Virus record (IMG/VR): IMGVR_UViG_3300046011_005443
Location: 39,121-103,120 of that record
Strand: one strand, 5' to 3'
Length of the DNA: 64,000 nt
Origin: a virus
The notes under the pieces: model-generated
The model's database searches: none
What the model saw: the letters and a program-made list of their open reading frames with translations, nothing else
What the model was told of the DNA's origin: nothing
In this document: piece after piece, positions 3,893-20,909 of the stretch
Numbering within the stretch: position 1 is the stretch's first letter
Layout: every line of letters starts with the position of its first letter
Made by a program: the position numbers and the translations under genes

Positions 3893-3915
3893 ATATATAC
3901 ATGGAGAAATAAATT

Positions 3916-4236: not shown

Positions 4237-4249
4237 CTAGGAGAATACC

Positions 4250-5152
4250 ATGGGTAGAAAACATACAGCAGGAACAGCAGGCGGCTCAGGAGTTGGTGGT
4301 TTTAATATAGATAACACCACCCTAACTGCTGCTGACGATCTGGACATTACCATAGATCCTGCCGGCACTGGCATATTTAAAATAGCTGGTGATGCACAGC
4401 TACAGGCTCAGGGGGATCTTCGATTTGCAGATTCAGATAGTTCAAACTGGGTGGCGTTTCAAGGCCCAGCTACAGTCTCATCAAATGTAACCTGGACACT
4501 GCCCGGTACAGACGGCACAAACACACAGTTGTTATCAACTAATGGATCAGGTGTGTTAAGTTGGGCCACTGCCGGATTATCTTTAACGGATAATACCTCT
4601 GATGCTGCATCTCACTTTGTGACGTTGACTACATCTACTACAGATACTACTATCACCTCAGTGAGACGTAGTTCTTCAAAATTGACTTTCCAGCCCAGCA
4701 CAGGAACATTAAGTGTCACTGAGTTAAGAGTAGCAGGACTGGCTACAAGTCTCCAAGTAGAAAATGTGCAGACAAGCAGTTATACCTGTGTATTAGAAGA
4801 CGCTGGAAAAGTTGTTACCATGAACAACACCAGCTCAGCAACTATAACCATACCTCCCAATAGCAGTGTGGCGTATCCCATAGGCACAGTGATCAGCATA
4901 GCTAGAATCAACACGGGTAGTGTAGCTCTCACAGCAGGTGCTGGAGTCACACTCACAGGAAATACTGGTACTGGGGCTATGAATGCTAACGAACAATTAT
5001 TTTGTAGAAAACGCAGCACAGACACCTGGTTGGTAGTTCACACCTTGGTCACTGGTTCCGTTAGCGCCACTGGTGGTACAGTCACAACACCCGCCGGATA
5101 TAAACTTCATCAGTTTACATCAACTGGTGCCCAAAGTTTTATTATATCGTAA
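4250..5152 (+). CDS. Fibre-like structural protein
   Basis: 300 residues with a good ribosome site (TAGGAGAA) before ATG. The composition is Thr/Ser/Gly/Ala-rich and beta-like, as in phage fibre shafts. Early segments such as WTLPGTDGTNTQLLSTNGSG resemble the repeat found in many marine phage tail-fibre proteins. The last 20 residues (GYKLHQFTSTGAQSFIIS) resemble the opening of glycine-rich adhesin domains, and the next gene encodes just such a protein. The pair may therefore form shaft and tip. No enzyme motif is seen. Confidence 0.6.
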   Translation: MGRKHTAGTAGGSGVGGFNIDNTTLTAADDLDITIDPAGTGIFKIAGDAQLQAQGDLRFADSDSSNWVAFQGPATVSSNVTWTLPGTDGTNTQLLSTNGSGVLSWATAGLSLTDNTSDAASHFVTLTTSTTDTTITSVRRSSSKLTFQPSTGTLSVTELRVAGLATSLQVENVQTSSYTCVLEDAGKVVTMNNTSSATITIPPNSSVAYPIGTVISIARINTGSVALTAGAGVTLTGNTGTGAMNANEQLFCRKRSTDTWLVVHTLVTGSVSATGGTVTTPAGYKLHQFTSTGAQSFIIS

Positions 5153-5167
5153 GCATAGGAGAAATAT

Positions 5168-6112
5168 ATGCCTTTTATCAGCACAATAAGAAGTCAATCA
5201 AATATTCAACAGCCCGAAAAAGCAATTTCGGAATCTATCTATGAAATCACTGGCGGTGATAAAGTATACACTGCTGGCGGCTATACCATTCACATGTTTA
5301 CCACCGTGGGAGATCATCAGCTAAATGTCAAAGTCAAAGACCAATACAAAAATTCAGCAATGAATTTGGTGAATACCGCCGCTGGTATAACTGTGGAGTA
5401 TCTAGTTATTGGCGGTGGCGGCAGCGGCGGCCAGGGATACAGCACCAACGGCAATGGTGGCGGCGGTGCCGGAGGATACCTATCAGGCACCACACCCCTG
5501 ACAACAGGCACGACGCCAGTTACAGTTGGCACAGGTGGTGGACCTCAACCTTACAATGGCGGTGCAAATGGCGCTTCTAGTAATCTTGGACCTATACAGG
5601 GCATCTATGGAGGTTACGGCGGCTATTATCATGGCTCAGCCGGCCAATACGGTGGAAGTGGTGGCGGAGCAGCCTACGGCTACGGCGCCGGTTCGAGCCA
5701 ACCGGGTCAAGGGTTTCCAGGTAGTCCATACACATATACTTGGTCGGGCGGTGGCGGTGGTGGGTCCAGTCAAGCCGGTCAGAATCATCAAGGTGGACTT
5801 GGTACCAGCAGCTCAATCACTGGCTCTGCATTAGCTCGAGCAGGTGGTGGTGGTGGTGGTGGTAACAGCTCAGAACCAGGTGGAGATGGAGCCAGCGGTG
5901 GCGGTAGAGGTCACGGATCTACTCCAAATTGGGGCTACAGCTACTATTCATACAGTCAAGATCCTCGCGGAGGATGGGGAGTAACTCATGCCTATACAGC
6001 TAATTCCGGATCAGGCGGCGGCGCAGGCTCATACTGGGCTCCAAACATTGGCTGGGGTGCAGGTTCGGGATACGGTGCCAGCGGCCTAGTGGTAGTAAGG
6101 TATCCTAACTAA
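5168..6112 (+). CDS. Glycine-rich tail-fibre tip adhesin
   Basis: 314 residues after TAGGAGAAATAT. Residues 1-75 form an ordered beta region, followed by VEYLVIGGGGSGG and about 200 residues of Gly-rich repeats interrupted by Tyr, Asn and Ser. It closes with GASGLVVVRYP, a typical end of the phage Gly-rich domain. The layout matches Gly-rich adhesins such as the T4-type gp38 receptor-binding tips, where polyglycine sandwiches display variable loops. It probably contacts the host receptor at the distal end of a fibre. It is not a scaffold or collagen protein, because the Gly runs lack the G-X-Y period. The stop codon overlaps the next start (TAATG). Confidence 0.7.
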   Translation: MPFISTIRSQSNIQQPEKAISESIYEITGGDKVYTAGGYTIHMFTTVGDHQLNVKVKDQYKNSAMNLVNTAAGITVEYLVIGGGGSGGQGYSTNGNGGGGAGGYLSGTTPLTTGTTPVTVGTGGGPQPYNGGANGASSNLGPIQGIYGGYGGYYHGSAGQYGGSGGGAAYGYGAGSSQPGQGFPGSPYTYTWSGGGGGGSSQAGQNHQGGLGTSSSITGSALARAGGGGGGGNSSEPGGDGASGGGRGHGSTPNWGYSYYSYSQDPRGGWGVTHAYTANSGSGGGAGSYWAPNIGWGAGSGYGASGLVVVRYPN

Positions 6113-6540
6113 TGGCAATTTTTAAAACCAATCGAGACATATTCACAGCGCCTTGGGAAGATGAATTGTTCAATGAGAATTGGATGGATCATGATGTTCC
6201 TTATGCGCCACCAACTGTGGATTGGAAATATGATAGAGAAATGAGGATCGAGGATGTGGAAATCTGGGAACAGATTTGCTACAAAACCGGAGGCATAGGG
6301 TTATATGCTGCATATCTGCCCTATGCTGAATTTTATATTGTCACAGGAAAATGGATACAGGCAAAACCTGGCAATATTGAATGTTTTTACGGCCCAGGTT
6401 CCATGCAGGCTGCATATCGCAGAGCCAAAGAAGTAGGAATGATAGTTGCTGTAAAAGAAACCTGGGTAGACGATAAAGATCTGTGGTTGCATCAACCTGG
6501 TGGAGCCAAACAGCAAGGCAATGTCACATTGTCTGATTAA
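6112..6540 (+). CDS. Unknown protein, paralogue of the 9979 gene
   Basis: 142 residues with start and upstream stop overlapping as TAATG. The core W-E-x-I-x-x-K-x-G-x-I-G-x-Y-A-A-x-x-P-Y-x-E-F-Y-x-V (residues about 53-79) recurs in the product of the gene at 9979. Both proteins end with a W-V-D motif. It follows the adhesin gene and precedes the convergent oxygenase cluster. The cytosol-like composition lacks a signal peptide or membrane segment. I cannot assign a function; a chaperone or modifier for the fibre tip is only a guess from position. Confidence 0.6.
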   Translation: MAIFKTNRDIFTAPWEDELFNENWMDHDVPYAPPTVDWKYDREMRIEDVEIWEQICYKTGGIGLYAAYLPYAEFYIVTGKWIQAKPGNIECFYGPGSMQAAYRRAKEVGMIVAVKETWVDDKDLWLHQPGGAKQQGNVTLSD

Positions 6541-6548: not shown

Positions 6549-7148
6549 CTAGGCATATTCAAAGTTTGCGCTAATGCTAATCCTAAGCTCTTTACTGTAA
6601 TTTTTTTCCACCATGTGTGGAACATTAGATCTAAATATCAAAAGCAAATCGTCTACTGGTTCATACGTACAGGTTTTCCTGCTAGCAAAATTTTCAAGAT
6701 TGCCTTCTACCGGAAGAGTATACATGTCAGTCATGGCTTCTATGCTTCTAAACCGAATTTTTCCACAATTTTCTAACACAGACAGATAGTAACTAACACT
6801 GAAATGAGATCGTGTGTGTTGATGATATTCTTGATAGGCTCCCGGTTCTGCAAGATTAAACCAAAAGTCTTTGCAGTAAAGAGTTTCGATGGGAAGATTA
6901 ATACCGTAGTTTTTACCAAATTCGTGTACCTTGTTTCGAAGCAGCTCAATCAAGGATATAACTATAGTGTCTTGATCAGATCTATAATCATAAAATCCCA
7001 CAGTATTGTAGGTATCACAGGCCCACTTGGTAACAGTATGACCTTGAGTCTGAAAATATATGGTCTTGGCCTTGTTTACAAGATACTGTCTATGTTGAAA
7101 ATTTAATGTATCATTGTAGATCAGTGTGGGGAACCAACCGTCTATCAT
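6549..7148 (-). CDS. 2OG-Fe(II) oxygenase-like protein (TIGR02466 type)
   Basis: 199 residues. A double-stranded beta-helix fits residues about 95-195, with putative iron ligands H109-x-H111 (YHQH), H178 (VPHMV) and a 2-oxoglutarate-binding R189 (ELRISIS). The opening 'WFPTLIY' is typical of the putative 2OG-Fe(II) oxygenase family TIGR02466, which uses HxH where HxD is usual. Such enzymes hydroxylate an unknown substrate using O2 and 2-oxoglutarate. Last gene of a four- or five-gene minus-strand operon: its ATG overlaps the stop of the preceding gene by four bases. The substrate is unknown; position beside fibre genes suggests a virion protein or surface glycan. Confidence 0.75.
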   Translation of the reverse strand: MIDGWFPTLIYNDTLNFQHRQYLVNKAKTIYFQTQGHTVTKWACDTYNTVGFYDYRSDQDTIVISLIELLRNKVHEFGKNYGINLPIETLYCKDFWFNLAEPGAYQEYHQHTRSHFSVSYYLSVLENCGKIRFRSIEAMTDMYTLPVEGNLENFASRKTCTYEPVDDLLLIFRSNVPHMVEKNYSKELRISISANFEYA

Positions 7149-7822
7149 TTGGTGTATTGGATATAGGATTTCTCAGCCACAGCATCACCGGGTTTAGTAG
7201 ATGTTTTATATTCTTTTAGAAGTTCTAGACTAGGGACGGTGCCTAGCATGCCCAAAGAATCACGTTTGTCCCATTTCCATTCTGCATTTGGTCCATGAGC
7301 ATCTACATAATGAAAGAAAGCCTGCACTTGCCAAGCATCTTGACCTTTGTCGAAAGGTTCGCGCCAATGAGGCACATCACATCCTCGATAAATTGCTAGG
7401 TCACCGGGTAGTAGATCCACTCGATTACCATCCATATATATTGACCAAACTTTGTCAGCATCGTAATTGAAATTGAAACACAGAGTTGCAGAAATTTCAC
7501 AACTAGGCCTATCTACATGGGGAGTAAGTGTGTCACCGTTTCTATAAACTCTATAATAGCAATAAGTTGGAAACAGAGAAAAACCCACTGCTTGTTCTAG
7601 CACAGGTTGCAGATGCAACAACATGCTTTCCATTGCAGGATCACAGTATTTTGAATGAGCTTCAGCACACTGAGCTCCGTCGCCCATTAAGGCTTTTTCC
7701 GGAGTGAAATCTTGCATTTCATCAAACAGAGCATATTGAGTGACAAAATCTCTTAGTTCCGTGGAGATTGCGGATCTTAATACTAAGTATTTGTTTTTTT
7801 CAAAAAAGTCTTTATTTTCCAT
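7145..7822 (-). CDS. 2OG-Fe(II) oxygenase-like protein (HxD...H)
   Basis: 225 residues when started at ATG 7822, which is preceded by AAGGAGC at good spacing. A longer in-frame start at 7852 would lie inside the upstream gene and lacks this site. Putative Fe ligands are H102-x-D104 (TPHVDRP) and H152 (DVPHWRE), embedded in 'PGDLAIYRG', the usual strand of the cupin-like core. The sequence resembles phytanoyl/prolyl-hydroxylase-like proteins of marine phages. It overlaps the stop of the upstream gene by 11 bases. Substrate unknown. Confidence 0.75.
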   Translation of the reverse strand: MENKDFFEKNKYLVLRSAISTELRDFVTQYALFDEMQDFTPEKALMGDGAQCAEAHSKYCDPAMESMLLHLQPVLEQAVGFSLFPTYCYYRVYRNGDTLTPHVDRPSCEISATLCFNFNYDADKVWSIYMDGNRVDLLPGDLAIYRGCDVPHWREPFDKGQDAWQVQAFFHYVDAHGPNAEWKWDKRDSLGMLGTVPSLELLKEYKTSTKPGDAVAEKSYIQYTK

Positions 7823-8615
7823 TTGAAGCTCCTTGATGAAAAGGACAACCAAGTGCTTGTTGTTCTATTTTTTCATGCAGTCTTTTTTTGTTATTATAAA
7901 GTTGAGTAGAATCACGATATTCATCTCTTTTCATCACAAATTTATCAATGCCAAATACTCGTTGATATTCGGACTGAGTGACCAAATGATGCACAAGTTT
8001 GATCTTCTTTTCAGTCATAGGGTGCATAATAGCCAGTGGAGTCAACGGCAGTATGGTGCAAGTTTGCAATTCTTTGGTCTGTTTTACAAATAGGTTAATT
8101 TCAGTGGCATGGGTATATTTGTAGTTCACTAAGCCAGGCAATACTGATATAACTCCATGGGTGTCTTGCATATTCCATAACGGTTCAGTCCAAGTAAAAT
8201 TCATGTCTTTTTTAGTTTTAATTGCCCAGGGAGAAATAAGTTTTATATTATGACCATGCTGGCCAGCAAAGCCAGGAAATTGCACACCTGGATGATTAGT
8301 AGGAGTAGAAACGTCCCCGTTAGAACTCACCCATTCCCACTCTTTTTCAGATCCTATGGGATTTACCATCATATTCATTTCAAACCATGAAGGAATAGCT
8401 ATGCCTTTTTTATAGTATTCTATAATTGCGTTACAATGTTTTATGGTTACCAAAGGGGGATCAGAGTCTGGCACTTTTGATGGCAACTGTCTCCACCAAT
8501 CCGGAGCATACTTCATAGCCCAGTCAATTTTAGCGTAGTCGTAGGCATGTGCAAGATGAGTAAAGCAGTCTACTACCACTTCTTCTTGTCTAGTAAAAAA
8601 ATACGGAAATTTCAT
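7812..8615 (-). CDS. Unknown protein of a family also present at 14799 (DUF6065-like)
   Basis: 267 residues, four-base overlap with the preceding gene. The N-terminal half contains DWWRQLP, then 'PSWFEMNMMV'; the second half holds paired beta segments ending in LPLTPLAIMHP. The same order is seen in the 242-residue product at 14799: a Trp-rich lead, IPSDYLLIQTS, then AGTPLAQLIAVP. I consider both to belong to the DUF6065-like group found beside 2OG oxygenases in phages, but this is from memory and unverified. The strand pattern suggests a beta-rich fold, with no clear metal ligands. The C-terminus (CPFHQGASNGK) is short and basic. Confidence 0.55.
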   Translation of the reverse strand: MKFPYFFTRQEEVVVDCFTHLAHAYDYAKIDWAMKYAPDWWRQLPSKVPDSDPPLVTIKHCNAIIEYYKKGIAIPSWFEMNMMVNPIGSEKEWEWVSSNGDVSTPTNHPGVQFPGFAGQHGHNIKLISPWAIKTKKDMNFTWTEPLWNMQDTHGVISVLPGLVNYKYTHATEINLFVKQTKELQTCTILPLTPLAIMHPMTEKKIKLVHHLVTQSEYQRVFGIDKFVMKRDEYRDSTQLYNNKKRLHEKIEQQALGCPFHQGASNGK

Positions 8616-9280
8616 AATAATATTTGTCTCGATGCAGGAATAGGAAAATAATCAGAACTTACTTCTTGAATAAAAAATACCTGTGTAAGTCTGGGCCTGT
8701 TATCATGCCCTGTAAATTTATTTACACCATGATACTGGAATCCGTCATAGGCAACAATTCTATTATAGATATTTTTAAAATTCACAGTTTCTTCAAATAG
8801 ACTGTTGTTTTCCTGTAGCTTTTCATTATAGAAATCAGTTTTAGTTCTATCAAAGTTCAAAAACATATCTTGTTTTTCTTCTAGATTGATCGGTATATCA
8901 AATGGTTTTTTTGGTCTAAACAACGAAGTGCCGCAGCCCGTATCTATACCGGGAGTGAGATATATCACCCCAGCATATGGCTTATAGTCTGCATGAATCC
9001 ATCCTTGATTGATTGATGAGTATTGATCTGGTTCTGCAATTTGGAAGTAGGTTTCCACAGCCCATTTAACACTGTTGGTTTTTTTAAAATCAAAGGTCAG
9101 GGAAAATAGCTTATCGCAGAAATTTTTAAAAAATACAGGATTTACAGAATCTAGGGAAGGTGATCTTTTGCCAGGCCATGGCACATTAGAAGTTGTTTTG
9201 AATTCTAAAGATAACGCAAACTCTCTGATCACATTCGGATCGTTATAAAAATTATCTACACACAGAGAAGGAAAATACAT
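8612..9280 (-). CDS. 2OG-Fe(II) oxygenase-like protein (DUF6445-like)
   Basis: 222 residues. 'WIHADYKPYAGVIYLTP' (residues about 94-110) gives H96-x-D98, followed by a GTSLFR strand; H184 (FQYHGV) and R197 (RPRLTQVFF) complete a 2OG/Fe(II) facial triad and 2OG anchor. The arrangement matches DUF6445-like proteins often found with prolyl-hydroxylase-like genes. It lies one base downstream of the first operon gene (9282-9911) and overlaps the next. Probably a protein or glycan hydroxylase; substrate unknown. Confidence 0.65.
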   Translation of the reverse strand: MYFPSLCVDNFYNDPNVIREFALSLEFKTTSNVPWPGKRSPSLDSVNPVFFKNFCDKLFSLTFDFKKTNSVKWAVETYFQIAEPDQYSSINQGWIHADYKPYAGVIYLTPGIDTGCGTSLFRPKKPFDIPINLEEKQDMFLNFDRTKTDFYNEKLQENNSLFEETVNFKNIYNRIVAYDGFQYHGVNKFTGHDNRPRLTQVFFIQEVSSDYFPIPASRQILL

Positions 9281-9281
9281 A

Positions 9282-9911
9282 TTATATTTCTCTATCCTTG
9301 ATCCACGTTACCATGCTGTATTTTGTGCCAGATGTTATTGGGTGTGCAATGTGTAGATACGCATAGTTGGATGGGAACAAAATTAACATTCCGGGTTCAG
9401 GTTTAATTTTTACGTGAAAATTAGGAAATTCCAACTCACCTCCTTCAAAATTGTCATTTAAATAACACAAGCAAGATATTGCTCTTCCTATAGGAGTTCC
9501 GCCATCATAATGTCCTTTGTATTCTTCGCCTTGATCGTATTTTAACATTTGATAATGTTCGTGCCAAAGACCTTCCTTGATATTAAATCTTTTAGCATAG
9601 GGAATTGATGCTGCTAATAATAACATATAGAACTGATTATGAACATTTTGTAATACAGCATTATTGGTAATTCCTGCTAGATGAGTAACTCCCATCATTT
9701 TGTTTGTTCTGTGTGTTTGATGTGGTCCTTCCTGAGTGGTTTCGGCTCGTTGCCAATGCACTCCGGAATCTGAATTAGAAGCTGCGTTTTCCACCATCTT
9801 GATAGTGTTCTCTGGGTTCGGCCAGGCATTTTCATAAATGGCAATACAACCTGCTATCACAGTGCTTGGCTGTAGTTCCCCAGGAAAAAAATTGTTTATT
9901 ACCACGGTCAT
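9282..9911 (-). CDS. Prolyl-4-hydroxylase-type 2OG-Fe(II) oxygenase
   Basis: 209 residues. The motif Y-K-G-H-Y-D-G-G gives H134 and D136; 'PGMLILFPSNYAYLHIAHP' gives the second His (H187 or H190), and K197 (GTKYSMVTW) takes the place of the 2OG-binding Arg/Lys, as in prolyl 4-hydroxylases. This is the first gene of the minus-strand oxygenase operon. AAGGACAAC precedes ATG, and a TTAAATAG element lies 27 bases further upstream (complement of 9938-9945). It may hydroxylate Pro or Asn in fibre or capsid proteins, but no substrate can be read from sequence. Confidence 0.8.
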   Translation of the reverse strand: MTVVINNFFPGELQPSTVIAGCIAIYENAWPNPENTIKMVENAASNSDSGVHWQRAETTQEGPHQTHRTNKMMGVTHLAGITNNAVLQNVHNQFYMLLLAASIPYAKRFNIKEGLWHEHYQMLKYDQGEEYKGHYDGGTPIGRAISCLCYLNDNFEGGELEFPNFHVKIKPEPGMLILFPSNYAYLHIAHPITSGTKYSMVTWIKDREI

Positions 9912-9937
9912 ATTGTTGTCCTTTTATACGAGCTATG

Positions 9938-9945
9938 CTATTTAA
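9938..9945 (-). promoter_or_regulatory. Late-promoter-like element for the minus-strand oxygenase operon
   Basis: Complement reads TTAAATAG, one or two changes from the T4 late element TATAAATA. The start codon follows after 26 bases with an intervening AAGGA. It is divergent from the plus-strand element at 9965-9972. Confidence 0.4.
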
Positions 9946-9964
9946 GAGAGCAACGGAATTATTT

Positions 9965-9972
9965 CATAAATA
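9965..9972 (+). promoter_or_regulatory. Late promoter element, near-leaderless
   Basis: CATAAATA matches the T4 late consensus at seven of eight bases. ATG of the 9979 gene follows after six bases without room for a ribosome-binding site, so the mRNA should begin at or next to the start codon. Confidence 0.65.
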
Positions 9973-9978
9973 CTGATT

Positions 9979-10323
9979 ATGGCCACCCGTTTTATTTCCA
10001 GCGACGAGATATTCAGTCACAAGTTTTATAAAAATTATTGTCAAAACATCTCGTCTAACAATTTGCAAACTACTGCTACTCCTTGTGTTGCAGATATAAC
10101 AGTTTGGGAAGAAATTTATTTTAAACCAGGTGTAATAGGTGTATACGCTGCCTGGGATCCTTATTGTGAATTCTATTTGGTTTATTATCCTGTGTTAGCG
10201 GAAACAAAGTTCCATTCGTTGACATTTTTTGGAAAAGATGCTTCGAATAGGGTTCAGGAATTTCTTGCAACATATGATATAGATCTTGCTACCAACAATG
10301 TATGGGTAGATGAAATCAACTGA
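9979..10323 (+). CDS. Unknown protein, paralogue of the 6112 gene
   Basis: 114 residues starting at ATG six bases after a CATAAATA late element. Residues about 42-66 (VWEEIYFKPGVIGVYAAWDP and Y-C-E-F-Y) align with the gene at 6112, with the same W-E, K-x-G, I-G-x-Y-A-A and P-Y-x-E-F-Y spacing and a W-V-D ending. The copy is shorter in the middle and N-terminus. Together the two copies bracket the minus-strand oxygenase operon, suggesting duplication or insertion of that operon. Function unknown. Confidence 0.6.
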   Translation: MATRFISSDEIFSHKFYKNYCQNISSNNLQTTATPCVADITVWEEIYFKPGVIGVYAAWDPYCEFYLVYYPVLAETKFHSLTFFGKDASNRVQEFLATYDIDLATNNVWVDEIN

Positions 10324-10552
10324 ATTTCAATGAAAAAGTCATCAGATCTAAACTATTTGAAAACTCAATGCAACTCCAATCTTCAGAAATTGATGATTTA
10401 AATTCTGTTTGCCAGTGATGTCTAATCACAGACTGTAGATCTAAAGACAACTGATCTGTATTATTTTGTTTTTCTATAAGATATTCCACGGCTTTGAGAA
10501 AAACAGGACTCACAGCGCAGTCATCTTGTAGTATTTTGATAGTCAAAGTCAC
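10316..10552 (-). CDS. Small hypothetical protein
   Basis: 78 residues, starting at GTG. An exact TATAAATA on the minus strand (complement of 10557-10564) ends four bases before the start, which is the main reason to accept this gene. It converges on and overlaps the 9979 gene by eight bases. Composition is acidic with no recognisable motif. Function unknown; a chance ORF remains possible. Confidence 0.4.
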   Translation of the reverse strand: MTLTIKILQDDCAVSPVFLKAVEYLIEKQNNTDQLSLDLQSVIRHHWQTEFKSSISEDWSCIEFSNSLDLMTFSLKFS

Positions 10553-10556
10553 TGTT

Positions 10557-10564
10557 TATTTATA
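10557..10564 (-). promoter_or_regulatory. Exact T4-type late promoter element
   Basis: The complement is TATAAATA, identical to the T4 late consensus, placed four bases before a GTG start on the minus strand. Confidence 0.45.
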
Positions 10565-10586
10565 GGTATCCAGTCTGCATTTTTAG

Positions 10587-10594
10587 AATAAATA
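10587..10594 (+). promoter_or_regulatory. Late-promoter-like element before the fibre gene
   Basis: AATAAATA, 24 bases before the ATG at 10619. No strong ribosome site intervenes. Confidence 0.45.
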
Positions 10595-10618
10595 ATAGAC
10601 TAATAACAAAGAATATCA

Positions 10619-12901
10619 ATGGCCAAAATATCCGTATCCGATGCAGTAAGAATAATTCCAAGAGACGCTGAATTTCTGAACAGAAAGTCAGGGCTAAGAG
10701 GTGAAGTTTTTTACGATCAAACAGCTAATACCCTTAGAATTTACAACGGATCATCCACTGGCGGATTAAATTTAGCTAGAGGAGATCTTGCCAATGTGTC
10801 AACCAGTGATTTTAGATCTAAGTCTGTGGTTTCTAAACTGGCTACAGTCACATATCAGGTAACAATCACAGGTCCTCAAGGCGGCGATACAGGCAACAAA
10901 TACAATCTTAACGGTGTTTATCGTCCTATACTGAATTTTGTAGTGGGCTATACCTATGTGTTTGTTCAGGACGATCCTACCAACGTCTACTTTCCTAACG
11001 TCAATGGAACTACAGTAAATCAGCATCCTTTGAATTTTTCCGCAGATAATCTCAGTGGAAACAATGGCGGCGGCACAAGTTATCTTGTAGATGTGCAATA
11101 TTACCTAGATAATGTTAATGTTACACAGGCAGTGTATAACAGTAATATGTTTGCCACAGCCACTGCACGGCAGGTGCGTATCACAGTCACTAATTCTACG
11201 CCAGCTTTGCTCTACTATTGGTGTTGGAATCACTTGGCCATGGGTCAGTCAATAGCAGTAGCAGATCCTGGATCAGGAACCGGTAGCGGAGGCGCACTAA
11301 ATGACTTGAGTGATGTTGTGTTAACAACTCCAACAATTAACCAGGTGTTGAAGTATAACGGCACAAATTGGATTAATGATACAGACTTAGAGTCTAATAG
11401 TTTTGCCACAATAGCAGTAGCAGGGCAAAGCTCAGTGGCTGCGGGCACCCCCACAGATACGCTGACACTAGTGGCAGGCGCAGGTATAACCCTCACAACT
11501 AATGCTGGCACAGATGCCATTACAATTACCAGCACAGCCAGCACAGGCAACATAACATTTGTTGCTAACACCATAGACAGCACAGACAGCACAGCTATCA
11601 CTGTAACTCCTGCTGTAAATTTTGAATCAGATGTGGTAGTAGGCAATGAAATCGTATTTGCAGACGGCACAAGACAGAATACTTCTGCTGTAGGTGTACC
11701 TGGGCCAGTAGGACCGCAAGGGCCAGCAGGAGCTTCGGGAGCAGGTACAGGAGATGTTCTTAGCAGTGGTGGCGGATATGTCGATAATGCTATTGTACGC
11801 TATGACGGTACTACCGGTACTATCATACAAACCAGCTCTGCAACCATATCAGATGCTGGACTACTTACGGCCACTAACTTCAGTGGTGGAGGTTCAGCAC
11901 TTACTTCGTTAAATGCTACGCAGTTGACTTCAGGCACCATACCGGACGCCAGATTTCCGGCTACGTTGCCTGCAGTGAGTGGCGCAAATCTCACAGCACT
12001 TCCTGCAACATTACCAGCGGCCAGCGGGGCTAATCTCACAGCATTAAATGCTACACAACTCACCAGCGGCACAGTACCCATCGGAAGACTCGGGTCGTCA
12101 GGAACACCTAGTGCCAGCACCTACCTTAGAGGCGACAATACATGGGCTACTGTTTCGGGCGGAGGATTAGCATCTGACAGTTTTGCCACTATATCTGTGG
12201 CAGGCCAATCGAATGTTGTAGCAGATTCAGCCACAGACACACTAACACTGGTGGCAGGTACAGGCATTACTATTACCACAGATGCAGGTACAGACACTGT
12301 GACCATTACCAACTCAGGTACTGGCCAAAACACTTTTGAAACAATAGCAGTAGCTGGGCAGAGTTCTGTGGTAGCAGATTCGGCCACTGACACTCTTACT
12401 ATAGCTGCAGGCACAGGGATCTCAATAACCACGGATGCCGGCACAGACACAGTGACAATTACCAGCACAGTCAGCGCAGGCGCCACATCATTCACCGGAC
12501 TAAGTGATCGTGCAGATCTCACCATAGACCAATTTTATCTACAGGCAATAACAAGACTTAATGTCACAAACAACGGAGCTAGTGCTTACAGATTTGACCA
12601 ATATGGCACCACTGACGATCCTACAGTCTATGCCATCAATGGCACCACCATAGCTTTCAATCTCAATGTGACTGGACATCCATTCTTGATACAAGACGGC
12701 GCTGGCGCAAATTATAACACAGGATTGGTACACGTGACCACAGGGGGCACCGTAACTACAGGAGCGTCGGCTCAAGGTCAAACATCGGGCACACTATATT
12801 GGAAGATTCCAGATTCAATTACTGGTAGCTACAGATATCAGTGTAGTGTTCATGCTGCTATGATTGGAACTATTCAGATTAAAAACTTTGCCAGTATTTA
12901 A
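10619..12901 (+). CDS. Tail-fibre protein with collagen-like segment and two cupredoxin-like domains
   Basis: 760 residues. The N-terminus (RNGLRGE-like 'NRKSGLRGEVFYDQTANTLR') is the attachment-type domain of marine T4-like fibres. Residues about 75-215 form a domain with HPLNF and a downstream Y-Y-W-C-x-x-H-x-x-M-G. A second such domain closes the protein (about 650-758) with GHPFLI and Y-x-C-x-x-H-x-x-M-I-G. His followed by C-x2-H-x2-M is the ligand order of plastocyanin-type copper sites. Between them lie Ser/Thr/Ala repeats (three copies of a 'FATI-VAGQS' module) and a short GPVGPQGPAG collagen-like run at about 365-375. It is probably a trimeric fibre; copper binding is inferred only from motif spacing. 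Confidence 0.7.
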   Translation: MAKISVSDAVRIIPRDAEFLNRKSGLRGEVFYDQTANTLRIYNGSSTGGLNLARGDLANVSTSDFRSKSVVSKLATVTYQVTITGPQGGDTGNKYNLNGVYRPILNFVVGYTYVFVQDDPTNVYFPNVNGTTVNQHPLNFSADNLSGNNGGGTSYLVDVQYYLDNVNVTQAVYNSNMFATATARQVRITVTNSTPALLYYWCWNHLAMGQSIAVADPGSGTGSGGALNDLSDVVLTTPTINQVLKYNGTNWINDTDLESNSFATIAVAGQSSVAAGTPTDTLTLVAGAGITLTTNAGTDAITITSTASTGNITFVANTIDSTDSTAITVTPAVNFESDVVVGNEIVFADGTRQNTSAVGVPGPVGPQGPAGASGAGTGDVLSSGGGYVDNAIVRYDGTTGTIIQTSSATISDAGLLTATNFSGGGSALTSLNATQLTSGTIPDARFPATLPAVSGANLTALPATLPAASGANLTALNATQLTSGTVPIGRLGSSGTPSASTYLRGDNTWATVSGGGLASDSFATISVAGQSNVVADSATDTLTLVAGTGITITTDAGTDTVTITNSGTGQNTFETIAVAGQSSVVADSATDTLTIAAGTGISITTDAGTDTVTITSTVSAGATSFTGLSDRADLTIDQFYLQAITRLNVTNNGASAYRFDQYGTTDDPTVYAINGTTIAFNLNVTGHPFLIQDGAGANYNTGLVHVTTGGTVTTGASAQGQTSGTLYWKIPDSITGSYRYQCSVHAAMIGTIQIKNFASI

Positions 12902-12975
12902 TTTTCTTTCAATTCTGACATTATAAATCAAATAGTTGATAATAGCTAATTTATTTTTGAATCTGAAATTATTGA

Positions 12976-12983
12976 ATTAAATA
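12976..12983 (+). promoter_or_regulatory. Late-promoter-like element
   Basis: ATTAAATA, 24 bases before the ATG at 13008, in the 106-base gap after the fibre gene. No terminator is visible in that gap. Confidence 0.4.
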
Positions 12984-13007
12984 CTCGTTTGCAAAGTATA
13001 TGAGATC

Positions 13008-13607
13008 ATGAATCCACAAATTATTCCAATTTTTCCTGCAGCTATCTATAGAATCAATCTTAGAAAGTTATCAGCGGCTGAACGAATTGCATATGACACT
13101 AATACCGTAACCTCTATAAGTAGACAAGGCAATCAGACATCTGTTAATTCAACCCTGCTTGATAGCGATGTATTCTCAGATTTGAAAAACATATTCATGG
13201 AGCATGTACATAATTATGCTCGAGAAGTGATTAAAACAAACTGCCAATTTTATATGACAAATTCCTGGAAAAATCAAAATAAAAAAGGACAACCACACGA
13301 TCTGCACAATCACAGAAATAGCGTGATTTCAGGAGTATACTATGTGAATGTTGCAGACAGTGAAAATTCTATCTGTTTCAACAGGCTAACATCACCGTTT
13401 TTTATGGAGTTTGAGTGCAGCGAACGTACACCATTTAACAGCATAGAATGGCAGATTCCTGTTGAAGATGCAATGTTAATACTTTTTCCTTCCACTCTCT
13501 TTCACAGTGTGCCTGTAAATACCACAAACAACGAACGATTGAGTATTTCTTTTAATACTTTCATCAAAGGTAATTTCAATAATAACACTCTTGTGATCAA
13601 CGCATAG
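13008..13607 (+). CDS. 2OG-Fe(II) oxygenase-like protein (TIGR02466 type)
   Basis: 199 residues. 'IIPIFPAAIY' at the N-terminus is the family signature of TIGR02466. The core holds H100-x-H102 (LHNHRNSVISGVYY), H166 (LFHSVP) and R177 (ERLSISFN), giving the iron and 2OG sites with His in place of the usual Asp. It opens the plus-strand half of the oxygenase island directly after the fibre gene. It resembles the product at 16059 more than those on the minus strand, suggesting tandem duplication. Substrate unknown. Confidence 0.8.
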   Translation: MNPQIIPIFPAAIYRINLRKLSAAERIAYDTNTVTSISRQGNQTSVNSTLLDSDVFSDLKNIFMEHVHNYAREVIKTNCQFYMTNSWKNQNKKGQPHDLHNHRNSVISGVYYVNVADSENSICFNRLTSPFFMEFECSERTPFNSIEWQIPVEDAMLILFPSTLFHSVPVNTTNNERLSISFNTFIKGNFNNNTLVINA

Positions 13608-13615
13608 CATAAATA
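13608..13615 (+). promoter_or_regulatory. Late promoter element
   Basis: CATAAATA immediately after the stop codon of the upstream gene; the rubrerythrin-like gene starts 36 bases later behind a CCGGAG ribosome site. Confidence 0.5.
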
Positions 13616-13651
13616 CACTATATAATTTTACTCATTCCGGAGATCATTTAC

Positions 13652-14182
13652 ATGAACACAGAATTACCAGTCCCAGAGGGATATCAAGAACCATTAATTC
13701 CGCCCCCTGATCTTGATCCAAATACACCGTTGGCTATTCCAGTGGCATTGAATAGCAAGACTGCAGCCAATCTTAAACTGGCGTTTGCTGCCGAGGCACG
13801 ATCTAATGATAGATATCACTATTTTGCTACTGTGGCTGAAAAATATGAAGATGCAAATGCTACAGCTTATTTTAAACAGATTGCCGAAGAAAAACATATG
13901 TTTGCTCAAGGCCATTTAAAAGAAGCTATTTTAGGTGGATTAGGTGATCCAGATACTGGAAAGCCATCAATGCATATTACCCAGGTATTGGAAACTGCAA
14001 TTGCTTCTGAAATGCAAGCATCGGTTGAGCTGTATACAAAATATGCAGATGATGCTCGAGAAGACAAGTTGCCGCATTTAGCAGAGTGGTTTATTGAATT
14101 ATCAAGAAGAGCATCTGCTCATAAAAAATCATTCGAAGACCTGCTGAAATACTACGATCCTGCCCCACCCGACAACGAATAA
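13652..14182 (+). CDS. Rubrerythrin-like four-helix protein without rubredoxin domain
   Basis: 176 residues after CCGGAGATC. A Pro-rich 35-residue lead precedes a ferritin-like bundle: 'AFAAEARSNDRYHYFA' (E48), E79-x-x-H82, E120 with E126, and H157. In rubrerythrin, a diiron peroxidase, these helices supply E, ExxH, E-x2-E and ExxH. Here the second E-x2-E reads E-M-Q-A and the final ExxH reads A-S-A-H, so two carboxylate ligands seem replaced. No C-terminal CxxC rubredoxin is present. It lies between two 2OG oxygenase genes. It could store or deliver iron or scavenge peroxide for these oxygenases, or be catalytically altered. Family assignment is fair; activity is uncertain. Confidence 0.75.
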   Translation: MNTELPVPEGYQEPLIPPPDLDPNTPLAIPVALNSKTAANLKLAFAAEARSNDRYHYFATVAEKYEDANATAYFKQIAEEKHMFAQGHLKEAILGGLGDPDTGKPSMHITQVLETAIASEMQASVELYTKYADDAREDKLPHLAEWFIELSRRASAHKKSFEDLLKYYDPAPPDNE

Positions 14183-14200
14183 GTTATATAATCTGTTCGC

Positions 14201-14755
14201 ATGAATCGAGTAGACTCAACTCTACCAATATTTTTACACCAAGGGTTAAAATCTTATCCAATTGATTGGATGAAGACACAGGTGTTAGCCGCACATCACA
14301 AGGCAGACTACAACACCGGAAATAATTTTCAAATCAACGATTCTTCGGGAGTGTTTCACACCTTATACAAAGATTTTTTTCATATTGCCAACCAGCATTT
14401 TGGTCCACTAGAATTAGATCAAAGAAATCTTGCCAGCTGTTGGGGTTATGTAACGAACAAATTTTTTTACAAAGGTGGCATCCATAATCACCTAAATACC
14501 TGTGTAATTAATGCTGTTTACTATTTGAATATACCCGAGACTGCAGATAGACATCAAGGGTCTCTAAGTTTTTATGATAATAACTTTCATGAAATCTATA
14601 ATATAAGACCCAACGTTGGTGATTTGATTATTTTTCCAGGATATCTTAACCATCAGCCTCATCAATCATTTAGTTTAGATTATAGAGTTTCTATTAACAT
14701 GGAAATTATTTGTCAAAATGTCTGGGGTGTTGACAACAACTCTGTTTTGAGTTAA
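14201..14755 (+). CDS. 2OG-Fe(II) oxygenase-like protein
   Basis: 184 residues. H95-x-H97 (GGIHNHLNT), 'GDLIIFPGYLNHQPHQS' with H151 or H154, and R162 (DYRVSINME) form the expected triad and 2OG anchor of TIGR02466-type proteins. The N-terminal 'LPIFLHQGL' replaces the usual FPTPI segment. A TATAAT at 14187-14192 stands eight bases before ATG but no -35 box is seen, so it may be a chance match. It follows the rubrerythrin-like gene by 18 bases. Confidence 0.7.
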   Translation: MNRVDSTLPIFLHQGLKSYPIDWMKTQVLAAHHKADYNTGNNFQINDSSGVFHTLYKDFFHIANQHFGPLELDQRNLASCWGYVTNKFFYKGGIHNHLNTCVINAVYYLNIPETADRHQGSLSFYDNNFHEIYNIRPNVGDLIIFPGYLNHQPHQSFSLDYRVSINMEIICQNVWGVDNNSVLS

Positions 14756-14762
14756 TGATTGC

Positions 14763-14791
14763 TTGTAAAATCTGTGTTGATGTGTTATAAT
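14763..14791 (+). promoter_or_regulatory. Extended -10 sigma-70 promoter, apparently leaderless
   Basis: TTGTAA (14763-14768), 17 bases, then TGT-TATAAT with the -10 at 14786-14791. ATG of the next gene begins eight bases after the last -10 base (seven between), the usual +1 position, and no ribosome site precedes it. Confidence 0.6.
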
Positions 14792-14798
14792 CAAAGAC

Positions 14799-15527
14799 AT
14801 GACTGCACAAAAGATTATATTTTATCCCACTATACCTGGCATCGATAAGACAATGCCGATTTTATCTGCAGATAAAATCGTGCATAATTGGAAACAGGAA
14901 GCAGCTAGAGAATTTAAAAATCAAAAAAATAATCTCGGGCATGCCATACACAGCATTTCTAATTGTCCCGGAATCAACATCTTACAGAGTCAAGGGTTTG
15001 TAGTGCGAGCATGGCAAGATATCTACGTCAAAGCAGATTCGTCACAGGATAAAATACAGTGGAGAACTCCTATTGATCAAGAAAAAATCAACGGCAGTCC
15101 GGCGATTGAGGAACATCAAGACAGTTTGTTTAAAACATTTCAAAACTGGCCGAATCATTCTAGCCGATCTGTGATAAAATTTATCACTGGCTGGTGCTGT
15201 AAAATTCCCAGTGATTATCTTTTAATACAAACTTCTGTATTCTACGCCGATGAAAATCGATTCACTGCTCTAAGTGGGATTTATTCAAGTGACTACGGAA
15301 TCAATAACATAAATGTTCCGGTATTTTGGCACAACCTCAATGAGGAAACCGTGATCAAAGCTGGCACCCCCCTTGCACAATTAATTGCAGTTCCTAAGAA
15401 TTCCTTGGAATTAGAAATCAGAACTGATATTAGCAAAGAAGAACTAACGATAAATTATATATTGATGAACAATACTTTCGTAAGAAATTACGCTAAGATC
15501 AAATCATATTTTCAGGGAAATCAATAG
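14799..15527 (+). CDS. Unknown protein, family member of the 7812 gene (DUF6065-like)
   Basis: 242 residues with its own sigma-70-type promoter, unlike its neighbours. The first 16 residues (KIIFYPTIPGID) are beta-like, then a Trp-rich region, then 'WCCKIPSDYLLIQTS' and AGTPLAQLIAVP near residue 190. This order parallels the minus-strand protein at 7812-8615. A beta-sandwich is likely and no catalytic motif is obvious. Its stop codon overlaps the next GTG start (TAGTG). Function unknown, but both copies are embedded among 2OG oxygenases. Confidence 0.6.
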   Translation: MTAQKIIFYPTIPGIDKTMPILSADKIVHNWKQEAAREFKNQKNNLGHAIHSISNCPGINILQSQGFVVRAWQDIYVKADSSQDKIQWRTPIDQEKINGSPAIEEHQDSLFKTFQNWPNHSSRSVIKFITGWCCKIPSDYLLIQTSVFYADENRFTALSGIYSSDYGINNINVPVFWHNLNEETVIKAGTPLAQLIAVPKNSLELEIRTDISKEELTINYILMNNTFVRNYAKIKSYFQGNQ

Positions 15528-16048
15528 TGCAAAGTACATTGTTTGAAACAAAATTTTATAGTTATTATATCAATGATTGGGAATCAAAGAAAGAAAAAAT
15601 TTCAAAAAAAATTAATGCAGCGGCATTGGTAAGAAAGCCCGGTCAATTGTTTGCAAGCGATCGAGGTAATAACAGCTATCAGTCTGAGTTTGTTGAAATT
15701 TTTAAGAATGAACTGGCTCTGTTTTCTAATGAAATTAAAGTAGAATCATTAGATATAGGCGACGTATGGACAGTGTCTTATGCAAAAGATGAATTTCATA
15801 TCCCTCATAATCACTCGGGGGTGGGATATTCGGGAATCATCTATTTAGATTACGATGAAACCTTACACAGTCCAACTTATTTTATTAATCCTGTAAATAA
15901 TCCCATAACTGATCAAACAGAGATAAAGAATATTGAAGCCAGTGAAGGATTAATGATTATTGTACCGAGTAATATTTTACATTACACGTTGCCTAATAAT
16001 TCACACACAATCAAAACTATAATTGGCTTTGATTTAAAATTTAGATAA
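15527..16048 (+). CDS. Divergent 2OG-Fe(II) oxygenase-like protein
   Basis: 173 residues, GTG start overlapping the upstream stop. H94-x-H96 (IPHNHSGVGYSGIIYL) and H152 (ILHYTLP) provide the iron ligands. The position of the 2OG-binding Arg is taken by K163 (IKTIIGFD). 'EGLMIIVPSNILH' is the preceding strand. The N-terminus 'LFETKFYSYYI' fits a compact oxygenase. Substrate unknown; a Lys anchor occurs in some prolyl hydroxylases, so activity is not excluded. Confidence 0.6.
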   Translation: MQSTLFETKFYSYYINDWESKKEKISKKINAAALVRKPGQLFASDRGNNSYQSEFVEIFKNELALFSNEIKVESLDIGDVWTVSYAKDEFHIPHNHSGVGYSGIIYLDYDETLHSPTYFINPVNNPITDQTEIKNIEASEGLMIIVPSNILHYTLPNNSHTIKTIIGFDLKFR

Positions 16049-16058
16049 GGCGGTTTCT

Positions 16059-16745
16059 ATGACACATGATGTTATTCCGTTATTTCCAACTCCATTATTT
16101 GTTGCAGAGATACAAGGATTCACCAACGAAGAATTAGAATTTGTAAAACAGTCATCTTTGTATTCTCGATACAAAGATGAACCAGGAAGATGTGTAGGAT
16201 CGGATAGATTTGATATCATACATTTACCTGAAATGTCAAGAGTATGTGATTTTGTGCAAACACAGTTGAATCTATATGCTCGAGAGGTAATGTCTATATC
16301 TAATCAGTTGTTTCCTACTATCAGTTGGTTGAATCGTACCACAACAGGTGCATATCATTATCAACATCATCATGTGAATAGCATTGTCAGCGGAGTTCTA
16401 TATTTCACAGAGGATCCTGCACCTATTGAATTTCACGTAGATAAAAATTGTGTTTGGGGCTCATTAAAGATGTTTCCTATCAAATATAATCAATATAACA
16501 CTCATAGCACCACAGTTGAAATCAAACAAGGAACATTATTGATATTTCCGTCCTACTTAGAACATTCTGTAATGAGATCAATAGCTGACACTGATAGGAT
16601 AAGTTTATCTTTTAACACTTGGGTGAATGGAACAATAGGCCTATTAGATAAGACCAGTTTTTTAAATTTAGATGCTCCAACATTAAAATTTGAGCCCAAA
16701 GACAATTTGAATGTGTTGATAGAACGACAACGATTGCAAAAATGA
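16059..16745 (+). CDS. 2OG-Fe(II) oxygenase-like protein (TIGR02466 type)
   Basis: 228 residues. 'VIPLFPTPLFVAEI' is the family's N-terminal signature. Q-H103-H-H105 (HHHVNSIVSGVLYF), H179 (YLEHSVM) and R190 (DRISLSFNTW) form the metal and 2OG sites. It is about 30 residues longer than the 13008 product, at the C-terminus, where no motif is seen. Its stop overlaps the next ATG by four bases, so translation is probably coupled. Substrate unknown. Confidence 0.8.
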   Translation: MTHDVIPLFPTPLFVAEIQGFTNEELEFVKQSSLYSRYKDEPGRCVGSDRFDIIHLPEMSRVCDFVQTQLNLYAREVMSISNQLFPTISWLNRTTTGAYHYQHHHVNSIVSGVLYFTEDPAPIEFHVDKNCVWGSLKMFPIKYNQYNTHSTTVEIKQGTLLIFPSYLEHSVMRSIADTDRISLSFNTWVNGTIGLLDKTSFLNLDAPTLKFEPKDNLNVLIERQRLQK

Positions 16746-17269
16746 TTAAACAGTATAACAAATTCACAGACGAATGGTTGCATTCTATAGTTAAAGAACA
16801 AGTATTAAATCCGATGTTAGATTGGAATTTTCCAAGTTATGCAACCGGTGAAATCGATTTAGAAAAGGCGGCATTTGGTAAGTTAACATTTAATAAACAA
16901 CAAAACATCAATAATTGGAACAGAGTAGAATCATTGACCTATGTTCTTGATCGATGGTTAGATCAAAATAAAGAATGGTTTAAAATTGATTTTTTAAATC
17001 ACTGTATGATAAATTTTTACACTGCTGGTCAGGTCACTGCCTGGCATAATGATAACTCTTATAAATTACCTGGAACATATAGTTTACTTTATTATGTAGA
17101 TGATAGCAATGGCGGGACTGAATTTGAACATCAAAAATGTTTCCACAAAGAAAACACAGGCATATTTTTTGATTCTAATCTAAGTCATAGACCGATTGCG
17201 TCAACTAAACCTAGACGTATAAGTGTAAGTTGGGTTCTAAAAGGAACAATTTTGCACAATGCTCAATAA
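16742..17269 (+). CDS. 2OG-Fe(II) oxygenase-like protein (prolyl-hydroxylase type)
   Basis: 175 residues. H102-x-D104 (AWHNDNS), 'YSLLYYVDDSNGGTEFEH', H149 (LSHRPI) and R159 (PRRISVSW) give a complete HxD...H...R set as in prolyl 4-hydroxylase-like proteins. It is the last oxygenase of the plus-strand run and faces the convergent minus-strand gene at 17277-17555 with seven bases between. No terminator is visible there. Substrate unknown. Confidence 0.75.
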   Translation: MIKQYNKFTDEWLHSIVKEQVLNPMLDWNFPSYATGEIDLEKAAFGKLTFNKQQNINNWNRVESLTYVLDRWLDQNKEWFKIDFLNHCMINFYTAGQVTAWHNDNSYKLPGTYSLLYYVDDSNGGTEFEHQKCFHKENTGIFFDSNLSHRPIASTKPRRISVSWVLKGTILHNAQ

Positions 17270-17276: not shown

Positions 17277-17555
17277 TTAGTTTTTTTGTGCCTGTGACCA
17301 GTCTCTGATTCTAGTTTCTAATTTTTTTCTTATAGCTGTGATATCTTGTTTCATTTCACTGCCCATGGTAGGTAGCTGACGACTGTAGATCATTTCCATA
17401 TGCATGCTATCTAATTTTTTTATTTCTGCAACAAGTTTATTCAATAGTTGTTGAGATTCTTGTTTAGCTGCACCATCAGGCATTGTGTCGATGGCTGTGC
17501 GATATCGCTCATAATCTTCCTGGAATCTACTAGATTTTTGTAACAGACTTGACAT
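17277..17555 (-). CDS. Small helical protein next to neck genes
   Basis: 92 residues, heavily charged and predicted largely alpha-helical with a coiled-coil-like middle (heptads around residues 30-60). It overlaps the preceding minus-strand gene by 26 bases and belongs to the gp14-gp15 transcription unit. This suggests a late or assembly role. I do not recognise the family by name. Confidence 0.6.
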   Translation of the reverse strand: MSSLLQKSSRFQEDYERYRTAIDTMPDGAAKQESQQLLNKLVAEIKKLDSMHMEMIYSRQLPTMGSEMKQDITAIRKKLETRIRDWSQAQKN

Positions 17556-17925
17556 TTTCTAACTCCAATATGGTTTCTATTTTCACACGTATTACTTGAT
17601 TATTTAATGTAGTTCTCAATCCCGAGTGTAGTTGTTTGGGAAGGCAATCTAAATCAGCCCAGCATACAGTCTTTGACGCCATAGTCAAAAACTCTTGATC
17701 GACCACGCACACATAGGTGCCATACTCAAACCCGCGATCTTCAGATAGATACAGTTCGATAGGAACTATACGCCCCTGTGCGTATTGAGTTAACAATGCG
17801 TCTGCATCCTCTAGAAGACTGTTATTGCGTTGAAAGGTAGGCACAGTCCATCGCTCATCATCTAAGATTAGAAATATGCGACCTGTGGTTTTAGCTAAAA
17901 ATAATAATCCGGCACGCTGTTGCAT
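17530..17925 (-). CDS. Nudix-fold-like protein lacking the Nudix box
   Basis: 131 residues from ATG 17925, eight bases after the gp15 stop; a longer GTG start at 17961 would overlap gp15. 'AGLLFLAKTTGRIFLIL' matches the first strands of Nudix hydrolases (AAG-x-LF--TGR-LL). The expected GX5EX7REUXEEXGU box is absent: the equivalent region reads 'WTVPTFQRNNSLLEDADALL'. It is therefore probably a non-catalytic Nudix relative. Downstream strands and WADLDCLP fit the fold's end. Its place in the neck operon suggests a structural or assembly role. Confidence 0.5.
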   Translation of the reverse strand: MQQRAGLLFLAKTTGRIFLILDDERWTVPTFQRNNSLLEDADALLTQYAQGRIVPIELYLSEDRGFEYGTYVCVVDQEFLTMASKTVCWADLDCLPKQLHSGLRTTLNNQVIRVKIETILELENVKSVTKI

Positions 17926-17933
17926 GCAGATAC

Positions 17934-20902: not shown

Positions 20903-20909
20903 AGTCATA

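Follow-up and report, generated by a model that had tools for sequence, protein, structure and literature searches.

The window analysed here, a stretch of 64,000 nucleotides of viral DNA corresponding to bases 39,121–103,120 of the 103,120-base IMG/VR virus record IMGVR_UViG_3300046011_005443, carries nine genes of the 2-oxoglutarate (2OG)/Fe(II) oxygenase type within 10.7 kb. They form a left array on the minus strand and a right array on the plus strand, on either side of a baseplate/fibre gene, and belong to five divergent oxygenase types. The position of this island, its purity in enzyme class, its apparent timing and the exchange block that it shares with fibre genes are best fitted by a dedicated late module modifying fibres or adhesins. 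We tentatively propose, with somewhat less than even confidence, that the island is a late-expressed oxidative tailoring module for tail-fibre/adhesin proteins. An initial annotation, made from the sequence alone, had suggested an organized modification system; the conserved place, the enzyme-class purity, the late-like motifs and the block of low synonymous divergence (dS) shared with fibres speak for a putative system of this kind, with fibres as no more than the likeliest target.

All nine proposed open reading frames (ORFs) were present, with families assigned by Pfam and, in the case of 7145, by a structural model. Their summed length is about 5.5 kb, and not the roughly 10 kb initially attributed to hydroxylases. 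Five proteins scored above the Pfam cut-off for PF13759, namely oxygenase A (6549–7148, minus strand; HxH..H..R) in the left array and oxygenases 1 to 4 in the right array (all plus strand: 13008–13607, 14201–14755 and 16059–16745, with HxH..H..R, and 15527–16048, with HxH..H..K). The TIGR02466-like subtype of the initial annotation held for 6549 (72.0 bits) and 13008 (73.4 bits), which exceed the NCBIfam cut-off of 62.5 bits, but not for 16059 (50.5), 15527 (28.5) and 14201 (27.3). The prolyl-hydroxylase-like and DUF6445-like subtypes were both borne out. The oxygenase at 9282–9911 (minus; PF13640, 58.5 of 27 bits) has solved prolyl 4-hydroxylases (P4Hs) as its best sequence relatives (E 2e-11) and shares their HxD..H..K pattern; it is classed as prolyl 4-hydroxylase-like, with peptidyl-proline hydroxylation as a putative activity. 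The DUF6445 protein at 8612–9280 (minus; HxD..H..R) scored above the cut-off for PF20043 (51.4 of 24 bits). Oxygenase 5 (16742–17269, plus; HxD..H..R) is PF13640-like, below the cut-off (24.9 of 27 bits, E 4e-5). Oxygenase B (7145–7822, minus; HxD..H), whose start is probably at 7822, given the ATG at that position, had no match in Pfam and only PHROG matches, labelled ferrochelatase. The tenth oxygenase of the initial annotation exists as well (53395–54153, plus; PF13640 above cut-off); it lies within a sugar/glycan-type gene cluster and probably does not belong to the island.

The HxH or HxD motif and the distal histidine proved to be conserved within each homologue set, with HxH in five of the nine proteins and HxD in four. 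An HxD/E..H facial triad was present in the 7145, 8612, 9282 and 16742 types: HxD..H in 38 of 38 homologues of 7145, HxD..H..R in 59 of 59 for 16742 and in 9 of 9 for the DUF6445 type, and, in the prolyl-hydroxylase type, the first histidine in 60 of 61 sequences and the D/E, the distal histidine and the K/R in all 61. The five PF13759 proteins lack this triad and carry HxH..H..R/K, as do all 81 homologues of their set; hhalign placed the second histidine of their HxH on the aspartate of the prolyl-hydroxylase set. By sequence, the PF13759 set matched the solved structures 2rg4 and 3bvc (E 3e-29 and 2e-27), both uncharacterised and with HxH in the alignment. As we know of no characterised 2OG hydroxylase with an HxH..H triad, we regard these five proteins as members of the oxygenase family with unproven chemistry, and their assignment as hydroxylases from sequence is not assured.

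The AlphaFold model of 7145 (34 sequences, mean pLDDT 88.9) had the double-stranded beta-helix fold of 2OG oxygenases. It matched 4j25, a P. putida prolyl hydroxylase solved with EF-Tu (E 1e-11, Z 16.5, in a range of Z 16–17), as well as PHD2 (Z 16.4) and SnoN (Z 17.0); ferrochelatase is absent from the listed fold matches of the model, where 2OG oxygenases match clearly. The structural expectation attached to the initial annotation, a double-stranded beta-helix with a metal triad, was borne out for the fold in the 7145 model and for the triad in four types, with HxH in its place in the five PF13759 proteins. The PHROG labels of 7145–7822 ('ferrochelatase', PHROG 2954) and 16742–17269 ('DNA endonuclease V', PHROG 274) were taken as misannotation; 8612–9280 is labelled 'minor coat protein' (PHROG 1644), and RefSeq phage records carry the same three names. 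A Tet/JBP DNA hydroxylase was set aside as a candidate, the single match having E 0.065 (12.9 of 34.9 bits). Searches of solved structures with the 7145, PHROG 7084 and DUF6445 profiles gave nothing useful.

Pairwise identity among the ten oxygenases was 11–26% in one alignment, which rules out recent tandem duplication as the source of the arrays and would give each oxygenase a site of its own. The nine array genes are under purifying selection, with dN/dS values of 0.04–0.22 against relatives of 83–94% identity in the printed comparisons.

A profile of the 9282 protein recovered 72 viral loci, 71 of which had the gene in the ORF calls; 43 remained after removal of near-duplicates (L109, only 29% identical, was kept). 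The same-strand runs at these 43 loci, from which neck-type genes had first been trimmed, contained 272 genes: 174 of oxygenase types, 44 tryptophan-halogenase-like, 20 of the PHROG 7084 type (the dUTPase-fold family), three carbamoyltransferases, three of a single unnamed family and 28 unlabelled. Since every run was selected for holding an oxygenase, the selection itself accounts for 43 of the 174. Halogenase-like genes occurred in 28 of the 43 runs, and PF04820 was found by Pfam in all six halogenase-like proteins tested, which are the same six that served as profile seeds. It was also found in 15 of 25 chosen records; the ten without it include the window's record, a 357-kb record and the 281,658-base relative of the window, whose array and flanking fibres are 99–100% identical to those of the window at the protein level. 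PF04820 matches occurred in five of 14 control genomes as well, and those in the 15 records had E 1e-81 or better.

Position was scored at loci with at least two genes on both sides of the island (25 of 43), and proteins of at least 150 residues and at least 18% glycine were counted as Gly-rich. A fibre homologue or Gly-rich protein lay within four genes of the island edge at 24 of these 25 loci, neck or sheath-stabiliser genes lay beside the island at 13, and both were present at 12. As a control, 58 windows of five genes from other parts of the window phage and its relative gave 0. This control is weak, coming from one lineage, and says only that such genes are not everywhere, because no gene in the control stretches qualified as a fibre, although L127 has large genes that by eye look structural. 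Among the close relatives, L015, L016 and L020 keep the left array at 58–73% identity; no match to the right array was found in G010 and G014, the contigs to which L015 and L020 belong, though the fibre end is present. L017 and L018 have the 9282 type close to a gp15-like gene, and fibre 10619 was not found there. Gene content is reshuffled between loci. A chaperonin GroEL gene stands at the island edge in L079 (4409–6001, PF00118) and L091 (5085–6674), and eight ORFs match the GroEL profile across loci.

The 281-kb relative has at least 14 oxygenase genes, nine of them within about 10.7 kb; outside the array this count covers types other than 7145 and DUF6445. One of the five outside the array is the tenth oxygenase of the window. 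Of the remaining four, read by eye, one is near sugar genes and apparent radical SAM genes, another is surrounded by large genes that look structural, and two have other settings. In the stretch 2177–12561 of L128, from the same relative, apparent radical SAM genes (CxxxCxxC in sequence) surround an oxygenase.

The arrays are also headed by sequences that resemble late promoters. The word [AT]TAAATA, chosen after the upstream sequences had been inspected, occurred 27 times in the window, and 18 of these lay within 60 bases upstream of a same-strand gene compared with 0.9 expected under uniform placement (17 of 27 without one gene whose start was shifted from 33566 to 33578 once the motif had been seen there). 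The comparison words ATAAAAT and AAAATAA were so placed in 0 of 30 and 2 of 40 cases. TTAAATA at 9939–9945 (minus) heads the left array, ATAAATA at 10588–10594 (plus) the fibre gene 10619, TTAAATA at 12977–12983 (plus) the gene 13008, and ATAAATA at 13609–13615 (plus) the gene 13652 and the remainder of the right array; the word also heads gp13, the tail tube gene 27057 and the terminase gene. The T4 late element resembles this word, and we infer from the likeness that [AT]TAAATA may act as a late promoter. The enrichment is positional only: the exact T4 late promoter TATAAATA had 3 matches compared with 5.3 expected, TATAAAT 18 compared with 21.4 and ATAAATA 14 compared with 21.5, so that none was enriched in number. 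Among the relatives, the first island gene carried the motif at 23 of 41 loci, compared with 6.8 expected from shuffles (13 of the 23 at −25 to −36), internal island genes in 24 of 213 cases and the reverse strand at 14 of 41 loci.

Divergence set the fibres and oxygenases apart from the neck genes. Against four contigs (G006–G009), dS was 0.24–1.04 from the fibre gene at 59 through the array, with the exceptions of fibre 10619 (1.2–1.8) and of 16059 compared with a paralogue in G008 (2.2). On the other side lies a conserved flank (17277–20908, minus) comprising the small genes y and z, a gp15-like sheath stabiliser (17934–19511) and a virion structural protein (19511–20908) classed as gp14-like by its location. 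Three of the contigs extend to this side, and in them dS was 1.5–2.8 in y, z, gp15, gp14 and gp13. The step falls between 17,269 and 17,277 in one of these contigs and is confined only to between 16,745 and 17,277 in the other two, as both lack 16742. In the sheath gene, a long match in G006 had a dS of 2.0, and a 53-codon match in G007 had, contrary to the step, a dS of 0.7. The low dS of fibres and oxygenases points to a common recent history, distinct from that of the neck genes. In L111, a capsid-side gene (3209–4375, 388 aa, capsid by eye) is 88–89% identical to three relatives (dS about 0.7) next to fibre-like genes of 36–54% identity, which makes a second mosaic block.

In the proposed tailoring module, the oxygenases would be produced together with the fibre chains and would draw on host 2-oxoglutarate, O2 and Fe(II). 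Particular residues could be hydroxylated before or during fibre folding, prolines by 9282 and others by the remaining enzymes, and the modification would alter fibre stability or receptor binding. Halogenases of related lineages might put halogen on aromatic residues, and the rubrerythrin-like protein of the right array may shield the Fe(II) enzymes from peroxide. Somewhat less probable is a wider proposal, in which aquatic phages, T4-like and others, share an island dedicated to tail-fibre maturation. Its enzymes would hydroxylate adhesin residues and in many lineages also halogenate them, the cassette would be inherited and swapped with the fibres, and the PF13759 proteins would be a variant of the oxygenase fold with three histidines. 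Oxygenases of the 2OG type are common and unexplained in aquatic phages, where they are usually counted as host-metabolism genes. The fibre/neck position, the late-like promoters and the shared exchange block make the proposal testable on fibre proteins of cultured phages, as hydroxylated or halogenated residues. Should the proposal hold, phage host range would gain a chemical layer, and phage tryptophan halogenases a native role.

Several observations weigh against the tailoring of fibres. A prediction that collagen-like proteins would accompany the islands failed, as an ORF with at least five G-x-y triplets was found at 3 of 43 loci. Collagen was therefore rejected as a general substrate, and the single 15-residue collagen-like stretch of fibre 10619, GVPGPVGPQGPAGAS, is not typical of the loci. 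Tryptophan made up 0.69% of Gly-rich proteins at loci with a halogenase and 0.74% at loci without (21 and 8 loci, p 0.83), and neither tyrosine (p 0.81) nor proline (p 0.61) differed; a link between halogenase presence and tryptophan content was accordingly dropped. Glycine content in the same comparison gave p 0.03, uncorrected. The late-like motif was picked post hoc from upstream sequences, is found on the other strand of upstream stretches of this kind in 6 of its 27 occurrences and also precedes some non-virion genes, such as 39154. A low-dS block occurs on the capsid side too, and the one shared by fibres and oxygenases could be plain hitchhiking. Some oxygenases have glycan-type surroundings (53395, and the 281-kb relative at 234 kb), S-SCSM2R has oxygenases within a glycosyltransferase cluster, and the nearest folds of 7145 include the EF-Tu-bound hydroxylase. 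The nine copies of S-SZBM1 are described as scattered in the genome (PMC9146016).

Several other explanations are less probable. A role in tailoring a small molecule or glycan, such as a halogenated secondary metabolite or the decoration of a capsule, was proposed by Iyer et al. (2021) for the S-SSM6a cluster, and the co-occurrence of halogenases, some carbamoyltransferases and oxygenases, also described for that cluster (PMC7824862), fits such a role. So does the sugar-type cluster of the window at about 39–57 kb, which contains the tenth oxygenase. The classical substrate of tryptophan halogenases is, moreover, free tryptophan. The nine-gene array, however, adjoins fibre and neck genes, with about 22 kb between it and the sugar-type genes, it has no halogenase in the window lineage, and carbamoyltransferases make up only 3 of 272 run genes; we consider this explanation rather unlikely. 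The position between neck and fibre genes might alternatively be an insertion hot spot that gathers useful genes with no functional tie to fibres, which would account for the reshuffled gene content and, through hitchhiking, for the joint dS block. A neutral site should show many gene classes, whereas 244 of the 272 run genes fall into five labelled classes (in runs selected for oxygenases and trimmed of neck-type genes), and a mere hot spot appears improbable.

Improbable to much the same degree is the hydroxylation of host proteins, for example translation factors, the ribosome or regulators, as a means of steering infection. The fold of 7145 is closest to a P. putida hydroxylase solved with EF-Tu, and the 7145 and 9282 types are adjacent in several contigs of a bacterial genome collection, but the late-like motifs and the conserved place by fibre and neck genes are not what such a role predicts, and nine divergent enzymes exceed the need of one host target. 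We regard it as very improbable that these are metabolic or DNA-repair genes, either lowering 2-oxoglutarate and thereby affecting nitrogen signalling through NtcA (proposed for cyanophages by Sullivan et al. 2010) or acting in repair, as others suggested from genes near uvsX/Y/W. Both proposals are in print (PMC3037559; PMC9146016), but related arrays occur in SAR11 phages, the photosystem reaction-centre gene (psbA) is missing from all six records searched (which may be fragments), and the array, with its late-like motif, stands by fibre genes and not by repair genes. Burning 2OG would also need no set of divergent enzymes under purifying selection.

Large numbers of oxygenase genes are not unusual among T4-like aquatic phages: 24 2OG oxygenase genes are given for S-SCSM1 (PMC9602691), 10 for S-CREM1 (PMC9964418) and 9 for S-SZBM1 (PMC9146016), and 14 of 16 earlier cyanophages had such genes in the report that also made the NtcA proposal (PMC3037559). 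S-SCSM1 and S-CREM1 resemble the window in having many divergent PF13759/PF13640 genes, and in S-CREM1 a Trp halogenase, a PHROG 7084-like gene and a gene annotated as collagen-like are followed by eight genes annotated as 2OG and one as JmjC, all in a row. Long oxygenase runs that include halogenases lie downstream of genes annotated as tail-fibre-assembly or collagen-like in Syn9 and S-CREM1. The published reading for S-SCSM1 and S-CREM1 differs, being host metabolism; unlike them, the window's record and the 281-kb relative have neither psbA nor a halogenase, and the window array surrounds a fibre gene whose product has cupredoxin-like motifs. In the S-SCSM1 virion analysis, 45 proteins were detected, of which three named ones are non-structural, none of them an oxygenase, and 13 more have no known function (PMC9602691); this would fit enzymes acting before assembly, but says little. 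The S-SSM6a cluster (Iyer et al. 2021) is like the islands in combining a halogenase with 2OG oxygenases and differs in its predicted metabolite/polysaccharide role; a published remark links a viral prolyl 4-hydroxylase to tail-fibre collagen (PMC9301287).

A similar arrangement is seen in the cultured pelagiphages HTVC008M and Mosig EXVC030M, in which an oxygenase run that includes the 7145 type lies between tail genes (annotated baseplate/fibre) and neck genes. In HTVC008M, tail genes annotated as baseplate and neck genes enclose five oxygenase genes on the minus strand, and there is a second cluster as well; in Mosig the run lies between tail-fibre and neck annotations, and this phage has additional genes annotated as haem oxygenase and PcyA. 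Both phages are smaller than that of the window and have other tail genes. Oxygenases accompanied by a 7145 homologue lie near annotated tail genes in HTVC033P and HTVC023P. The P4H structures related to 9282 are 3itq/5hv0, which we take to be from B. anthracis, and 5c5t from chlorella virus PBCV-1; 9282 has HxD..H..K and differs from them in that its substrate is only putative, with a single collagen-like stretch in the adjacent fibre. The halogenase described by Gkotsi et al. in 2019, reportedly a marine viral enzyme of phage source named VirX1, is a phage FAD halogenase as in the islands, but the window lineage has none. In the literature searched, from which subscription journals were mostly absent, we found no description of a neck-fibre island or of fibre modification by the whole set.

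The virion and replication genes of the window are T4-like, with a gp13-type head-tail adaptor, the gp15-like sheath stabiliser, tail sheath, tail tube and ssDNA-binding protein; the tail sheath protein is long (22786–26340; 1184 aa, PHROG 10581, E 5e-221). The large terminase has its closest counterpart, at 54% identity, in PA5oct-like jumbo phages of Pseudomonas. None of six island records (the window's record, the 281-kb relative and four others, all of which may be fragments) gave a match to psbA, which makes a typical marine cyanophage unlikely.

The island is preceded by a tail fibre protein (59–3892, plus; PHROG 9851 tail fiber, E 8e-72) and three small plus-strand genes within 3916–6112 (3916–4236, 4250–5152 and 5168–6112) that were taken as fibre/adhesin-like, the first two by position only; the third is Gly-rich (28% Gly) and matches PF21722 (31.8 of 24.3 bits). 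Small proteins recurring at island edges, encoded at 6112–6540 (plus) and 9979–10323 (plus, with ATAAATA at 9966), were handled as one small family, W, which was recognised by its own profile and had no match in Pfam (E 0.1), in PHROG or in NCBIfam (E 0.01). The baseplate/fibre protein at 10619–12901 (plus; PHROG 677 and 708), initially described as cupredoxin-bearing, has two C-x2-H-x2-M motifs that are cupredoxin-like and no Pfam match. The rubrerythrin-like protein was confirmed (13652–14182, plus; PF02915, 43.5 of 22.8 bits) but falls short of the NCBIfam equivalog threshold (46.3 of 200). Two interspersed proteins, at 7812–8615 (minus) and 14799–15527 (plus), had been called DUF6065-like; neither matched a DUF6065 model in Pfam or NCBIfam, and both belong to PHROG 7084. 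The model of 14799 (27 sequences, pLDDT 76) is dUTPase/dCTP deaminase-like (Foldseek E 8e-5; Z 11.3, rmsd 2.4 over 120 residues), with 14.9 bits against Pfam dUTPase, under the cut-off of 22.

The sugar/glycan-type cluster of the window (39154–57000) includes a nucleotidyltransferase with an MPI domain and an FkbM methyltransferase (Pfam), as well as glycosyltransferase- and epimerase-like genes read by eye, and a carbamoyltransferase lies at 62422. Contigs with the 7145 type in the bacterial genome collection showed no clear functional context; among the best 80 of 89 such loci, two had a halogenase. A Maricaulis-binned contig, phage-like by eye (L172, 725–5697; also L174), has a Gly-rich fibre-like gene followed by 9282-, 7145-, PF13759-, 16742- and PF13759-type genes, and a Porticoccaceae-binned contig, by eye a T4-like phage (L156, 9212–19973), has 9282-, 7145- and DUF6445-type, two halogenase-like and two PF13759-type genes. 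In a SAR11 single-cell contig (L203, 6308–11106), fibre-like repeats (by eye) precede a 7145-type and a 9282-type gene, and an adjacent pair of these two types also occurs in L131, L132, L146 and L207.

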